From a virus: DNA of 64,000 bases. The notes under the pieces are model-generated. The model was given only the letters and a program-made list of their open reading frames with translations. It did no database searches and was not told the DNA's origin. The position numbers were made by a program, and so were the translations under genes. The first letter of the stretch is position 1, and every line of letters starts with the position of its first letter. Location of the stretch: IMG/VR virus record IMGVR_UViG_3300014962_000004, positions 16,282 through 80,281 of that record. The stretch is one strand, 5' to 3'. Positions 18,882 through 25,425 of the stretch are shown in pieces.

Positions 18882-19024
18882 TCGGCGGTCTTTTCCGCAA
18901 AGCGATCCCAGCAGGCTGCCAGCCAGGTCGGCACTGGATCGCCACACTCGACGCAGGTTCCGTTGCCGCGCTGCCAGACGTGAATGTGGCCGGTGTCGGT
19001 GATTTCCATGCCGGTGTCACTCAT
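18878..19024 (-). CDS. Small Zn-finger-like protein, 48 aa
   Basis: The protein has His residues (TGHIHVW) followed by a CVEC pair and a later Cys (AACWDRF), suggesting a tiny metal-binding fold. ATG at 19024 lies in an ATGAGTGA overlap with the helicase stop, the same eight-base overlap used by the loader gene, so it is probably translated by coupling. Function unknown. Confidence 0.6.
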   Translation of the reverse strand: MSDTGMEITDTGHIHVWQRGNGTCVECGDPVPTWLAACWDRFAEKTAE

Positions 19025-20279
19025 TGTCGATGTATTCCTCTCGGATCCGGATCTCGGTGCGCTCGGTGAGGTGCCAGGCCAGCGTCCAGCTGCGGGTGTC
19101 GCAGCGGCGGCTGCCCATGATGTCCAGTCCCATAGCGTTGTTGGCCCGCATCTCAGTGTTGCGCCACAGACCCAGCGCAAGGTCGACGGTCTGCTCGATC
19201 ATCGAGCTATTGGCAAAGTTGTACAGCTCGCCACGACCGCCGCCCGCTGCGGCCTGCCGGTTGAGCTGGACGGCCAGCAGGCACGGCACCTTTCCGGCGG
19301 ACTCGCGGGAGATCTCGTCCTTCAACTCGAAGATGATGTCGCCCTGCTTCATCCGCAGCGCGGAGTCGCCGTTGTAATCGCGTTCCGCGTCGATGAACGA
19401 CAGCTGGTCGATGATGAGGAAGTCGGCACCGAGCTGGCGGGCGCGGGACACCATGTGCTTCACGGTGCGCTCGCCGCGCTGGGGGCGTTCGATCCAGCCG
19501 TCTCCGGCTTCGGCCATCGCGTCCTGCGCCTCACGCAGCTGGGCGGACTCGTGCACGTCCAGCTCGCGCTGGCTCAGACGCTGATACGACACTCCGGAGT
19601 AGATCGCGTCGATGCGATCCTCGATCTCGGGCACGCCCATTTCGAGAGTGAAGAACAGCGGGCGCAGGCCGTTACGGAGGGCGGCGACAAAGCTGTTGGC
19701 CAGCAGCCAGCTCTTGCCGGTCTTGGTGTAGGCGGCGGCAGCGGCCAGCTCGCCGGGCAGGATGCCACGAGTGTGCTGATCCAGTTCCAGCAGACCGATG
19801 TCCACCCCGGCGGTCTGCTGGTGCTGCAGATCCCGGTTGTAGCGTTCCCGCCGGGCGGCGACGGTCTCGGTGATGTTGACCCGGCTGTAACGGGGCACGT
19901 TGTGCTGGGCCGCGTCGTATGCGTCGTGCCACATCTTTTCCAGGGCGGCGACCGGCTCGGCGGCGGTCAGCTTCATCACGTCCCGGACGATGGTCTGCAC
20001 CCGGCGCGACGAATACCGGTTCTTCATCCACTCGACGAGCCAGTCGGTGGTTTCGTCGACCTCGGCGGGCAACGGCAGTTGCGGGTATTCGGCTTCCATC
20101 ACCGCCAGGGTGGGGGCGGACTGCATCTGCGCGTCGGTCCAGTAGTCGACCATGAACTGGAAGGCGAACCCGTTGACCGGATCCTCGAACACCTCACGGC
20201 GGATGCCCATCTCCCAGATGCGGGCGATCTCCCGGCTGTCGGTCATCTTGGCCAGCAGCTTGCGCTCGTGACTAGACAA
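19017..20279 (-). CDS. DnaB-like replicative helicase, 420 aa
   Basis: The RecA-fold C-terminal half has a Walker A loop (AAAYTKTGKSWLL, K189), a Walker B (FLIIDQLSFID) and a segment (ALRMKQGDIIFELKDEISR) in the position of DnaB motif 3/4. The N-terminal 150 residues are helical, as in DnaB. DnaB-type helicases unwind the fork as hexamers. The start is TTG at 20279, supported by GGAGGTG about eight bases upstream; an internal ATG (MTDSREIA) is an alternative. It overlaps the DnaC-like gene by eight bases. Slightly short compared with 450-470 aa for cellular DnaB. Confidence 0.85.
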   Translation of the reverse strand: MSSHERKLLAKMTDSREIARIWEMGIRREVFEDPVNGFAFQFMVDYWTDAQMQSAPTLAVMEAEYPQLPLPAEVDETTDWLVEWMKNRYSSRRVQTIVRDVMKLTAAEPVAALEKMWHDAYDAAQHNVPRYSRVNITETVAARRERYNRDLQHQQTAGVDIGLLELDQHTRGILPGELAAAAAYTKTGKSWLLANSFVAALRNGLRPLFFTLEMGVPEIEDRIDAIYSGVSYQRLSQRELDVHESAQLREAQDAMAEAGDGWIERPQRGERTVKHMVSRARQLGADFLIIDQLSFIDAERDYNGDSALRMKQGDIIFELKDEISRESAGKVPCLLAVQLNRQAAAGGGRGELYNFANSSMIEQTVDLALGLWRNTEMRANNAMGLDIMGSRRCDTRSWTLAWHLTERTEIRIREEYIDNE

Positions 20280-21060
20280 TCGGTCGCACCTCCCCGTTGC
20301 GGATCTCGTCGATCTCCCGGCTGTTGGCGCTGGTGCGGAAATCGTTGCCGTCGAACCGGAGATCCAGACTCTTTTCCCGGATCAGGCTGAGGATGGCCGC
20401 ACCGTATCCGTCCTCCAAGTCCTGGGGATCCATGTTGGTGGTGATGAACGTCGTGCGCCCGGCCTGCACGCGCTGCCGCAGGATCGCGTCAAACGTGGTC
20501 TCGGCCAACGCAATTCGAGTGCCGCGCAATTCCTTGCCGACATCGTCGAGCAGCAACGCCTGGGAGTTGATGAACTTCTGCTGGAAGTAGTTCTTGTCGG
20601 CCTTGTCCGACCATCCGGCGGTGAACATCTCCACGGTCTGGCTGAACGTGGTGGCCCAGCACGTCAACCCGTCCTTGACGAGTTCTTTGAGTACCAGGTT
20701 GGCCAGCATGGTCTTGCCGGTGCCGTAGGAGCCGGAAAAGTACATGCCGATACCGCGTTTAAGAAATTGCTCGCGCTTGTCGAGGTACTTGGTGACCCCG
20801 TCGAGGATAGGTGTGGGGCCGACGTAGTCGTCCCAGTCCAGGCGCTGATACGTCACGCCGATCCCGGCGGCGAGGTAATGCTTGTGCAGCTGCAGCTGAT
20901 ACTCGCAGTCGCAGACGTTGTCCTGGTTGCGCCAGAAATACGCGCCGGTCTTGTCACACGTCGGGCAATACTTCTGGTACGAGCGGCCCAGCTGGGGGTG
21001 ATTACGGTACAGCCGGGCGGCTTCGTCGTCGGAGAGGTAGCGGGTGCGGATGTCACTCAT
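20272..21060 (-). CDS. DnaC/IstB-like AAA+ helicase loader, 262 aa
   Basis: The AAA+ core has Walker A GSYGTGKT (residues 110-117), Walker B (QALLLDDVGKEL) and a sensor-like TTFITTNMD. This order is typical of DnaC-type helicase loaders. The N-terminus carries a four-Cys zinc element (CPTC at 32-35 and CDC at 50-52). ATG at 21060 lies in an ATGAGTGA overlap with the upstream small gene. Loaders place the DnaB ring on single-stranded DNA, and the helicase gene follows immediately. Confidence 0.85.
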   Translation of the reverse strand: MSDIRTRYLSDDEAARLYRNHPQLGRSYQKYCPTCDKTGAYFWRNQDNVCDCEYQLQLHKHYLAAGIGVTYQRLDWDDYVGPTPILDGVTKYLDKREQFLKRGIGMYFSGSYGTGKTMLANLVLKELVKDGLTCWATTFSQTVEMFTAGWSDKADKNYFQQKFINSQALLLDDVGKELRGTRIALAETTFDAILRQRVQAGRTTFITTNMDPQDLEDGYGAAILSLIREKSLDLRFDGNDFRTSANSREIDEIRNGEVRPIV

Positions 21061-21301
21061 CGCGCTCCCACCGACTGATCCAGCGGTGCTCCACGACTTC
21101 GCCCTGGCGCGGGGTGACGGGTTCCTCGTCGGCAAACCACAGCGTCCTGCCGCCCTCGTCGTCGCCGACGGAAAACTCCTGGTGCAATCCCAGTTCGCGG
21201 ATCACCGCGTCGGCCAGCCGGTCGAAGTTGACCAGATTATTTTGAGTTCTCAATCCTTCCCAGATTGCGGCGGCGATGCGGGTGCGGAGCGAGTCAGTCA
21301 T
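21053..21301 (-). CDS. Small protein with LRTRIAA/LADAVIREL motif, 82 aa
   Basis: Begins MTDSLRTRIAAAIWEGL, then FDRLADAVIRELGL after a short variable loop, followed by a unique acidic C-terminus with Trp residues. The same paired-helix motif appears in the next two or three genes. Short proteins of this style are frequent in mycobacteriophages; their role is not established as far as I know. ATG at 21301 overlaps the preceding stop by eight bases (ATGACTGA). Confidence 0.7.
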   Translation of the reverse strand: MTDSLRTRIAAAIWEGLRTQNNLVNFDRLADAVIRELGLHQEFSVGDDEGGRTLWFADEEPVTPRQGEVVEHRWISRWERDE

Positions 21302-21907: not shown

Positions 21908-22028
21908 CGTCGTACTCCCAGGTGATCCGCAGCTCCCGCTCCCCGATGCCGATGGTGATGAACTGGTCGTTTTCGCGCAGCTCCTCGACGATGGCGCGCA
22001 CCAGGCGCGCGGTCAGGTCGTTGCTCAC
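21900..22028 (-). CDS. Tiny protein, 42 aa, related helix plus beta hairpin
   Basis: The sequence starts VSNDLTARLVRAIVEELR, which resembles the repeated motif of the next genes, and ends in a beta-prone segment (QFITIGIGERELRITWEYD). GTG at 22028 overlaps the upstream stop as GTGA. The longer open frame upstream is non-coding because it overlaps the 128-aa gene. Function unknown. Confidence 0.55.
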   Translation of the reverse strand: MSNDLTARLVRAIVEELRENDQFITIGIGERELRITWEYDGG

Positions 22029-22411
22029 AGGTCGAGCAGACTGACGGTGCCCAGGCCGGATCCGGTGGCGGTGCGGGCGGATTCGCGGCGCAGCTCGTCC
22101 TGCAGCTCGGTGTACATCTTGTCGACCCACCACTTGCGGCCTTTGGCGAATGACTGGTAGCGCACCGGCTCGCCGTCCCAGCGGCCCTTGTGCTTGTAGA
22201 ACACCCACTTGACGATCAGCCCCGCGTCGCGCTTGCCGTAGAGGCGCTGCATGCCTTTGAACACCGAGCGTTCCGGCAACCCCTCGACGGGCAGGTTTAA
22301 CCCGAACGCTTCCTGGTAACTCTTGATGTATGACACCAGCTGATCGGGAGTCATGTCCTCGCACCGGATGCCCATGTCTTCTTCGAGGGGGTCTGTATCG
22401 CTGAAACTCAA
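22025..22411 (-). CDS. Hypothetical basic protein at the head of the replication operon, 128 aa
   Basis: Unrecognised. The central part (SYIKSYQEAFGLNL, then GLIVKWVFYKHKGRW and YQSFAKGRKWWVDKMY) is rich in aromatic and basic residues, consistent with nucleic-acid or protein binding. The start is TTG at 22411 with GGAG five bases upstream; an ATG twelve codons later (MGIRCEDM) is an alternative. It is the first gene after a 58-base gap with a promoter candidate, so it may begin the operon leading to the loader, helicase and primase. Confidence 0.55.
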   Translation of the reverse strand: MSFSDTDPLEEDMGIRCEDMTPDQLVSYIKSYQEAFGLNLPVEGLPERSVFKGMQRLYGKRDAGLIVKWVFYKHKGRWDGEPVRYQSFAKGRKWWVDKMYTELQDELRRESARTATGSGLGTVSLLDL

Positions 22412-22453: not shown

Positions 22454-22483
22454 ACTATAACCGATGGCGGCGACAATCGTCAG
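22454..22483 (-). promoter_or_regulatory. Candidate promoter for the replication operon
   Basis: On the minus strand a -35-like CTGACG (22478-22483) is separated by 18 bases from a -10-like TATAGT (22454-22459). Both match the housekeeping-sigma consensus in four to five of six positions. The site lies in the 58-base gap before the 128-aa gene. It is a sequence resemblance only. Confidence 0.4.
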
Positions 22484-22893
22484 CTATACGCGGATGTGTC
22501 TCGCCGTTTTCGGTTAGTCAGCACGTTCTCGCATTGCGACCGCAGCGCGTGTGAATAGCTACGGATCTTGGAACGATGCTCGTGTTCGAGGTCTTCCAGG
22601 CGACGACCGGTCTCTTCGATTTTGGCGACCGGCCAGAAGATGAGAACGCTGTGCGGCTCGTCGGCGGCGTGGGCCGGGGTTGTCGACATCTGTAGGCATT
22701 TGTCGTCGAATCCGGTGATGTAGCCAACCGTGCACTGGCCGTCGGTCTCTTTGATGCGGAACTCGACCTCGCGATAGATCCGGCGCACCAGATACCGCTG
22801 CATGATCTGATCACTGCTTAGGCCGATGTCGATATTGCCGGGTTGGCTCACGTCGTCGTCCTCTGTCCACTGTGGCACTACAAACACTGTCAT
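22480..22893 (-). CDS. Putative Sm/Hfq-fold protein, 137 aa
   Basis: Residues about 36-72 read as an Sm1-like motif: VRRIYREVEFRIKETDGQ, then CTVGYITGFDDKCLQM, the pattern of a strand, a G-x-I-x-G-F-D turn and a strand. Residues 80-95 (HSVLIFWPVAKIEET) could be Sm2. The C-terminal third is basic and helical. Sm/Hfq proteins bind RNA as rings. Mycobacteria are generally reported to lack Hfq, so a phage copy would be notable. The match is weak and by eye; a generic beta-barrel is the alternative. ATG at 22893. Confidence 0.4.
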   Translation of the reverse strand: MTVFVVPQWTEDDDVSQPGNIDIGLSSDQIMQRYLVRRIYREVEFRIKETDGQCTVGYITGFDDKCLQMSTTPAHAADEPHSVLIFWPVAKIEETGRRLEDLEHEHRSKIRSYSHALRSQCENVLTNRKRRDTSAYS

Positions 22894-22926: not shown

Positions 22927-24063
22927 TTAGCCATCCCCCCAGGACAGCAGGGTGTCGGCCATCAAGTCGACCCCGCGTGTCACCTCGTGCGGAGACGACA
23001 CCAGCACCGGGGCCAGCCGGACGGTGTCACCGAACGCCGGTTCCACGTGCAAGCCGTGGTGCCGGGCGGCAATCGGGAAGGCGGCGGCGCGCTGTTCGTC
23101 GGCAAACTGCAGGCCGCGCAGCAGGCCGGTGCCGTGATGGCCAACCAGCAAGCCGGGGAACTGCCCGACCAGCCCGTCCAAGCCGTCGGCCAGGGTGCGC
23201 GTCAGATCCTTGACGTGCTCGATCACGCCGGGGTGGGTGCGGGTGAACAAGGCGTGCCCCATCGCGCAGGCCCACGGGTGGCCGGAATGCGGGCTGGGGG
23301 CGTGCAGGTTGTCAAACCAGTCCGGAGGGGCCACCACCGCGCCCAGCGGCAGACCGCCGCCCAGCGGCCCGCCCAGGACGGTCAGATCGGCCATCAGCCC
23401 CAGGTGCTCCTGCCCCCACAGGTGGCCGGTGCGCCCGAAGCCGGTACCGGACTCGTCGACGATCACCGGCACGCTTTCGGTGCGGGCGCGCAGCATCCAC
23501 TCCCGCGCGCCGGGCACCGGGGATCCGGTGACGGTGGTGGGAGCCAGCAGCAGCGCCCCGTACTGGGTCCAGTCCACGCCGGACCAGTCGGTGGAGAACA
23601 GCACCGGCATGCCCAGCCAGTTGTGCCAGCCGGTGTTGAGCACGGCGACCGGTTTGTCGGCGGCAGCCAGCCGGATGGCGGTGTGCACGGCCTCCCGCTG
23701 CCCCTCGCAGAACAGCACCTTGCGCGGGGGTTCGTCGGGCCGGGTGAACGCCGCCGACAAATCCTGGGCGTACTCGACCGGCCAGCGCAGCGCATGCTGG
23801 CCCTGCACGCCGGTATAGCCGTAATACTTCAGGTGGTCGGTCAGTGCATCATGCAACGACAGCATCCGGTGCCCCAGCGGGTTGAGATGCGCGGCGAAGT
23901 CGATCATCTCGTTGCGGTAGTCGTCCCACAGATAGAGCAGATCGGCTTTGGCGACCGGCAGCGGATCCGGCGTTGCCGCCGCCAGGTACGTGGCATGGCC
24001 GTCCAGTCGGGGCCGGACCGCCTCGTCGATCAACGCGACAAACGCGTCCTGCGGATTACCCAC
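22927..24063 (-). CDS. Class-III aminotransferase-fold protein lacking the PLP lysine, 378 aa
   Basis: The fold-type I, class III layout is clear: CEGQREAVHTAIRLA (residues 119-133) in the place of SGaEAnEaAiKlA; VPVIVDESGTGFGRTGHLW (D203, the residue that contacts the PLP ring nitrogen); EHLGLMADL; LGGPLGGGLPLGAVV; SGHPWACAMGHAL; and RLAPVLV near the C-terminus. In active members the motif before LGGG is AKG, with the Schiff-base lysine. Here it is GGP, so the lysine position is G232. Length is somewhat short of the usual 400-450. It is therefore likely inactive as a transaminase or repurposed. GTG at 24063, one base after the HTH gene, with a weak ribosome binding site. Confidence 0.8.
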   Translation of the reverse strand: MGNPQDAFVALIDEAVRPRLDGHATYLAAATPDPLPVAKADLLYLWDDYRNEMIDFAAHLNPLGHRMLSLHDALTDHLKYYGYTGVQGQHALRWPVEYAQDLSAAFTRPDEPPRKVLFCEGQREAVHTAIRLAAADKPVAVLNTGWHNWLGMPVLFSTDWSGVDWTQYGALLLAPTTVTGSPVPGAREWMLRARTESVPVIVDESGTGFGRTGHLWGQEHLGLMADLTVLGGPLGGGLPLGAVVAPPDWFDNLHAPSPHSGHPWACAMGHALFTRTHPGVIEHVKDLTRTLADGLDGLVGQFPGLLVGHHGTGLLRGLQFADEQRAAAFPIAARHHGLHVEPAFGDTVRLAPVLVSSPHEVTRGVDLMADTLLSWGDG

Positions 24064-24665: not shown

Positions 24666-25385
24666 TCATTCCTGGTTGGGTGCGAGATCCCGCACCATGA
24701 GACGAGCGGACTTCCACTCGCCGGGCACGACCGCGTCGCGCATCTGCTCCATCAGAGCGGGATTGGCCACCACGGCGGCGGACAGGGCGGAGTCGTTCAC
24801 CTCGTAGGTCACCTTGACCGTGGTGATCTGAGCAAACAGGTCATCGCCCAGGACGGCACGCAGCTTGTCCATGTCGAACTCGGCAGGCTTGCGGCCCGCG
24901 CCCTCGCGGCAGAAACGCTTGCCCAGCTCGGGAACGTCGACCTCCATGTTGGTGTGCTCGGGGAATTCCTCGCCCATCTCGGCGGCGGCGAGATCCATGT
25001 GGCGGAACACCAGGGTGCGAACCATGTCCTGGATCGCGGCCTGCGACTCGGCGACGATCTTGCCGTCCAGGTAGGACCGCATCAGCTCGAACGCGTCGTC
25101 GTCGGTGAGACCGCGCTCCATCAGCTCGTCGGACTTGGCGGCGATCTTCTTGCCCAACGGCAGCAGGGTGGACATTGCGTCGCTGACGCGGGCCAGCTCG
25201 ATCTTGTTGTTCTCGGCCAGCGCCTTTTGGTGCGCGGCCTTGCGGACGGCGGCGTTGTTGCCCTTCTTCTCGATGGCCGACGCGGTGTCGACCTCAGCGA
25301 GGATGTCCTTGACCAAGCTGTTCTTGGTCTGCTTCTTCAGCTCGGCGGCGAGCTTGGTGGTGGCGAGGCTCTGGGACTTTGCCAT
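24666..25385 (-). CDS. Hypothetical mostly helical protein, 239 aa
   Basis: Unrecognised. It is an alpha-helical protein rich in Ala, Lys and Glu with no membrane segment. Start MAKSQSLATT at 25385 has AGGTG upstream; two earlier in-frame ATGs exist in the leader. It has a dedicated promoter-like leader and is the first gene of the small operon with the HTH and aminotransferase-fold genes. Confidence 0.6.
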   Translation of the reverse strand: MAKSQSLATTKLAAELKKQTKNSLVKDILAEVDTASAIEKKGNNAAVRKAAHQKALAENNKIELARVSDAMSTLLPLGKKIAAKSDELMERGLTDDDAFELMRSYLDGKIVAESQAAIQDMVRTLVFRHMDLAAAEMGEEFPEHTNMEVDVPELGKRFCREGAGRKPAEFDMDKLRAVLGDDLFAQITTVKVTYEVNDSALSAAVVANPALMEQMRDAVVPGEWKSARLMVRDLAPNQE

Positions 25386-25425
25386 GGGGATCACCTGTTC
25401 TTTCATCTCAGTGGGTGGTAACACC

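Follow-up and report, generated by a model that had tools for sequence, protein, structure and literature searches.

The locus and its protein

The window, a 64,000-nt stretch of the IMG/VR virus record IMGVR_UViG_3300014962_000004, carries a DNA-replication module on one strand, and within it lies a gene whose product has the fold of a class III aminotransferase (Table 1). We confirmed the frame as real, with its GTG start 1 base past the stop of the DUF7229 gene. DUF7229, called MerR-like HTH in phage I3, is the HTH protein that an earlier note, made from the letters of the window, had described as co-encoded with it. We refer to the product as a pseudo-aminotransferase (pseudo-AT).

Table 1. 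Features of the replication module in the window, in order of transcription
Feature	Position	Strand	Basis or remark
DUF7242 (PF23890) gene, first constant module member	24666..25424	-	E 3.3e-45
DUF7229 (PF23875) gene, MerR-like HTH in phage I3	24065..24658	-	E 3.1e-36; one base upstream of pseudo-AT
Pseudo-aminotransferase (class III fold, 378 aa, GTG start)	22927..24063	-	Pfam, PHROG, alignments, AF2 model, Foldseek
Codons of residues 228-240 (TVLGGPLGGGLPL), former PLP-lysine loop and turn after it	23344..23382	-	computed from ORF start
G232 codon, at the lysine position	23368-23370	-	computed from ORF start
Hfq-like protein (PF23874 Phage_Hfq), directly downstream of pseudo-AT	22480..22893	-	E 5.5e-42
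Small conserved protein, 128 aa (phrog_2799), ahead of helicase loader	22025..22411	-	conserved gene order
DnaC-like helicase loader (AAA+)	20272..21135	-	~50-63% identity to named-phage loaders
DnaB-like replicative helicase	19017..20279	-	PF03796, E 2.6e-18

The fold assignment in the earlier note was borne out by profiles and by structure comparison. The protein matches PF00202 (Aminotran_3) with 89.4 bits (E 2.6e-25; curated cut-off 30.5 bits), almost entirely through its C-terminal half (best stretch residues 195-371), and matches the phrog_2736 ‘aminotransferase’ profile over its full length (E 3.5e-87, residues 7-376 of 378). An AF2 model built from a 10-sequence alignment is moderately confident overall (mean pLDDT 73.6, pTM 0.74) and weak at residues 33-67 and 233-238, the latter being the former lysine loop. 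In a Foldseek search of the PDB with this model, acetylornithine and related aminotransferases fill the top 50, with ArgD structures at a TM of ~0.7, and against viral models the phage relatives of the protein rank first. The AF2 model of the 305-aa Phrappuccino version (pLDDT 64, pTM 0.49) is too poor to interpret. The likeness to ArgD/AstC (acetylornithine/succinylornithine type) lies in the fold and in the motifs DE-x-x-TGFGRTG and GGGxPxGA; unlike those enzymes, the window protein has neither the PLP lysine nor the other PLP contacts, its identity to them is only ~20-29%, and some pseudo-ATs have large-domain deletions. The earlier statement that all class III motifs are recognisable holds for the C-terminal half, but not for the N-terminal half, where the PLP-binding motifs are absent.

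The same module recurs widely. At least 210 records of phages (Mycobacterium, Gordonia, Rhodococcus) contain a homologue of the pseudo-AT within their replication module, and the order DUF7242-DUF7229-pseudo-AT-(Hfq-like)-small protein-DnaC loader-DnaB, on one strand, is seen in 15/15 representative lineages, among which the L009 contig ends short of the loader. The Hfq-like gene was not detected at this position in Skog, Pupper, Settecandela and L017 and is present in most relatives; its place between pseudo-AT and loader hints at RNA handling in the start of replication. In annotated genomes DnaB is followed by primase, a DnaJ-like protein, SSB and DNA polymerase III alpha. The window loader is ~50-63% identical to the loaders of other named phages in the group, and the loader and aminotransferase trees concur on the main groups. 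Among named phages, a close loader occurs in 210 records (Mycobacterium 196, Mycolicibacterium 1, Gordonia 9, Rhodococcus 4), and the aminotransferase records give identical counts per organism, a match made at that level and not record by record. The direct homologues in the phrog_2736 family (among them Bixzunavirus I3 gp208, Myrna gp183 and Rhodococcus E3 gp145) range from 36% (Bixzunavirus) to ~26% identity; they occupy the same place before the DnaC-like loader and share the change from lysine to glycine or proline, and the databases call them ‘aminotransferase’, their records making no mention of an inactive site.

Four uncultivated relatives with loaders 49-52% identical (L043, L047, L049, L051) have no pseudo-AT, nor do most freshwater loci, so that the module can work without this gene, which is not universally required. 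The more distantly related loader of Eggerthella phage LE2-3 is accompanied by the small protein and DnaB, with aminotransferase and DUF7229 absent.

Two side observations concern the neighbours of the slot. In Bixzunavirus the pseudo-AT adjoins I3 gp207, a ‘thymidylate kinase’ (L002:5472-6029) that matches only phrog_2107 and no Pfam family at E 0.1; this label merits the same scrutiny as ‘aminotransferase’. A 5’-3’ exonuclease gene lies directly or nearly upstream of the slot in L021 (6749-7645), Stormageddon (L024:4223-5167) and freshwater loci; the window phage and Bixzunavirus have none there.

The cofactor site and its history

The central claim of the earlier note was that the Schiff-base lysine had been lost, with G232 in its place. 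Alignment upheld this, K255 of E. coli ArgD falling on G232 within VLGGPLGGG, and showed the loss to be wider than claimed. We compared 19 pseudo-AT sequences, comprising the window protein, homologues from named phages (Bixzunavirus I3 and Tonenili; Myrna, Phabba, ScoobyDoobyDoo and Settecandela/Phrappuccino; Gordonia phages Skog, Pupper and Stormageddon; Rhodococcus phages Finch and E3) and homologues from uncultivated contigs (L009, L010, L017, L037, L038, L040, L045). As a yardstick we used 29 other class III sequences, of which 5 come from freshwater phages and 24 are of cellular or stray origin; two genes are present in duplicate among them. The lysine column holds glycine or proline in 19/19 module homologues and lysine in 29/29 of the others, so a sequencing error or private mutation at G232 can be dismissed.

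Other parts of the site are missing as well. The S-G-T of the PLP phosphate loop is gone from all 19 sequences (the window protein reads EGQREA where NSGTEA is expected), the catalytic Glu of the VEP motif is replaced in 19/19, and the partner-subunit Thr is likewise gone throughout (P instead of T284 in the window protein). The aromatic-His-Gly (F-H-G) ring-stacking segment is deleted or unalignable, and the substrate Arg is present in just 7/19. The Asp that contacts the pyridine nitrogen is kept in 16 of the 19 (D203 of the window protein, inside DESGTGFGRTG) and is Asn in Tonenili, Skog and Pupper. Lysine, Glu and Asp are all retained by 29/29 yardstick sequences. Lengths of the pseudo-ATs range from 303 to 411 aa; the short versions of Settecandela/Phrappuccino (305 aa) and L017 (303 aa) lack the central part of the large domain. 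The most conserved segments are the glycine-rich GGPxGGG and the DE/GFGR region. Identity to cellular class III enzymes is ~20-29%.

A lysine elsewhere that could bind PLP would have told against this picture, and we looked for one. The window protein has only K39, K79, K115, K137 and K285, the L017 homologue has a single Lys across its entire length, and none that is conserved or close to the site was found in the module homologues. Since the lysine, phosphate loop, stacking segment, Glu and Thr have been lost, PLP binding and transamination by the pseudo-AT are, judging from these alignments, very unlikely, and the label ‘aminotransferase’ on more than 200 phage genes is probably wrong. PLP binding had been raised earlier as a possible new role; the missing N-terminal PLP motifs and the 303-305 aa relatives, which are without the middle of the fold, make that unlikely too.

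In a maximum-likelihood tree the lysine-less proteins form one clade (support 100/99), and because they are monophyletic the tree is most simply explained by one loss in an ancestor. On that view, the ancestor shared by a large group of actinobacterial phages gave up PLP together with all aminotransferase chemistry, and the pseudo-AT has since passed down by vertical descent as part of the DNA-replication module. Over six lineage pairs its dN/dS is 0.38-0.70 (0.38-0.44 for I3/Tonenili, Myrna/Phabba, Skog/Pupper and window/L009, ~0.7 in the most diverged pair), compared with 0.05-0.48 for neighbouring replication genes; in the I3/Tonenili pair the pseudo-AT, at 0.38, evolves faster than the loader, at 0.05. 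The protein is under purifying selection, but loosely. With catalytic residues lost across the clade and selection still acting, it is properly called a pseudoenzyme. A search for cellular or plasmid versions returned only ordinary, weakly similar aminotransferases (one of three plasmid matches was examined), and neither a single-protein scan of viral contigs nor two lineage-specific scans gave new homologues.

Freshwater phages with an intact enzyme in the same slot

Scanning viral contigs with the loader yielded 57 loci, 15 with a pseudo-AT and 10 with an aminotransferase whose PLP site is complete; the rest have neither within the flank covered. In freshwater phages the gene order is DUF7242, DUF7229, other genes, 5’-3’ exonuclease, LuxE (PF04443), LuxC (PF05893), aminotransferase and PTPS/QueD, followed by a radical-SAM protein (QueE-like), FolE, a dCTP-deaminase-like protein, an Hfq-like protein, the small protein, loader and DnaB. 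The freshwater aminotransferase matches PF00202 with 239 bits. It differs from the pseudo-AT in its complete PLP site and in its company: in a survey of 18 records, LuxE, LuxC, PTPS/QueD-like and FolE genes were present in 6/6 records with the intact enzyme versus 0/8 with a pseudo-AT. The cassette lies beside QueD-, QueE- and FolE-like genes at L105:3880-12401 (IMGVR 3300025467_000009) and L054:134-10027 (3300025379_000005), and LuxE-LuxC-aminotransferase recurs in freshwater phages L067, L076, L078, L080 and L082.

The lysine-bearing phage enzymes (L054, L067, L076, L078, L082) occupy the same module slot and, with a HemL-type sequence as the root of the tree, are the weakly supported sister group of the pseudo-ATs (87/73); the two groups share 19-26% identity, which does not exceed the identity of the pseudo-ATs to cellular enzymes. 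A shared origin in that slot is suggested.

What the freshwater cassette makes can be proposed from established chemistry. LuxE and LuxC would activate a carboxylic acid and reduce it to the aldehyde, from which the aminotransferase would give the amine; with FolE, QueD and QueE alongside, the acid would be 7-carboxy-7-deazaguanine. QueC and TGT-type (DpdA-like) genes were sought in the 18 phage records and not found, though a divergent DpdA could be missed by such a search. A cassette with neither QueC nor a detectable TGT is possibly a new route to an aminomethyl-7-deazaguanine DNA base. The pseudo-AT would probably descend from the aminotransferase of this acid-to-aldehyde-to-amine cassette, the pathway itself being probably one of 7-deazaguanine, as the shared slot and sister grouping suggest.

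Two other records among the 18 surveyed have a LuxC-like gene alone. Such genes, unaccompanied by LuxE, aminotransferase, QueD or FolE, lie in that slot at L058:5788-6852, L066:5879-6922 and L053:5841-6890, and the one in L058 retains the probable catalytic Cys within a GEGC motif. The lone LuxC-like gene may likewise be a remnant of this cassette.

What the pseudo-aminotransferase may do

Lysine-less pseudoenzymes of PLP folds are already known as a kind. One is LCB1, a subunit of serine palmitoyltransferase with the type I fold of PLP enzymes; it lacks the lysine, serves a structural purpose and functions as an obligate heterodimer with its active paralogue. The window phage differs from that arrangement, as a search of its 150-kb record found no second PF00202 gene and hence no class III partner. 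The pseudo-AT is probably still dimeric, because the glycine-rich motifs that it retains line the dimer and active-site face in known class III enzymes.

We give almost no credence to the GenBank reading of an ordinary phage-encoded aminotransferase: nearly all of the ~200 records are so annotated and the Foldseek match agrees with the fold, but the lysine and the PLP-phosphate, stacking, Glu and Thr contacts are missing in 19/19 sequences. Nor does the gene look like a functionless remnant being lost after the LuxE-LuxC-aminotransferase pathway went. Its lost active site, its range of length, its fast evolution and its absence from some relatives could all be expected of such a remnant; however, the frame is open and uninterrupted in all lineages read, dN/dS is well below 1 in the closer pairs, and the gene is kept in all close-loader records of named phages (by matching organism counts) across divergence to ~26% identity, which makes decay a poor explanation. 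The general idea of the earlier note, that the fold was kept for a new role, is the one we retain.

That role could be directed at the host. Class III enzymes are dimers with shared active sites, LCB1 provides a precedent, and a pseudo-AT with no phage-encoded partner enzyme might form mixed dimers with a host aminotransferase (ArgD, GabT, BioA and others), switching it off or retuning it. Its fairly fast evolution points the same way, and its higher rate than that of the loader between I3 and Tonenili would also be in keeping with a binding partner in the host. Yet an identity of only ~20-29% to cellular enzymes is low for such pairing, the deletion of the middle of the large domain in several members would disturb a mixed dimer, and every lineage read has the gene at a fixed position within the replication module, not in a variable early or host-takeover region; we consider host poisoning unlikely. 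We think it similarly improbable that the remodelled pocket (GGPxGGG and DES-x-TGFGR) binds or senses a nucleotide or another metabolite, or performs PLP-free chemistry. GGPxGGG and DE/GFGR are indeed the best-conserved parts, the fold is retained and relatives of the module handle modified bases, but almost all the strongly conserved residues are Gly, Asp/Glu and turn residues common to ordinary class III enzymes, which the fold can explain; no novel group of invariant polar positions is seen, and loop 233-238 is modelled with low confidence. For the non-transaminase chemistry proposed earlier we found no positive evidence, and that proposal is not supported.

A protein-protein adaptor fits best, because the fold has been kept while the cofactor site was stripped, the place in the replication block is fixed, purifying selection is loose and large deletions are tolerated. 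We therefore favour, with moderate confidence, a pseudoenzyme of fold type I (class III) that probably came from the cassette enzyme and may now be a non-catalytic adaptor or scaffold of replication. It might work with DUF7229, the Hfq-like protein, the phrog_2799 protein and the DnaC-like loader, and would act in starting or regulating phage replication; gene order and co-occurrence are what hint at this job. The fuller history, in which a lake-phage enzyme of the LuxE-LuxC route, converting 7-carboxy-7-deazaguanine to a preQ1-like aminomethyl base without QueC, was disarmed and rebuilt as a part of replication initiation, is a tentative proposal that we hold to be rather doubtful as a whole.

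In the parts of the literature available to our searches, we found no paper on this protein or its missing lysine. What is new is that an entire viral clade of lysine-less PLP-fold proteins has a fixed place in replication operons, and that relatives carry an intact counterpart at the corresponding position. Some 200 phage genomes carry the label ‘aminotransferase’ for a protein that is very probably unable to bind PLP, and metabolic inferences drawn from that label would be wrong. The freshwater relatives provide an unusual before-and-after pair and point to a predicted acid-to-amine route for modified DNA bases. If the pseudo-AT is truly a replication adaptor, a much-used group of phages, Bixzunavirus and its relatives, would have taken a metabolic fold into its replication machinery.
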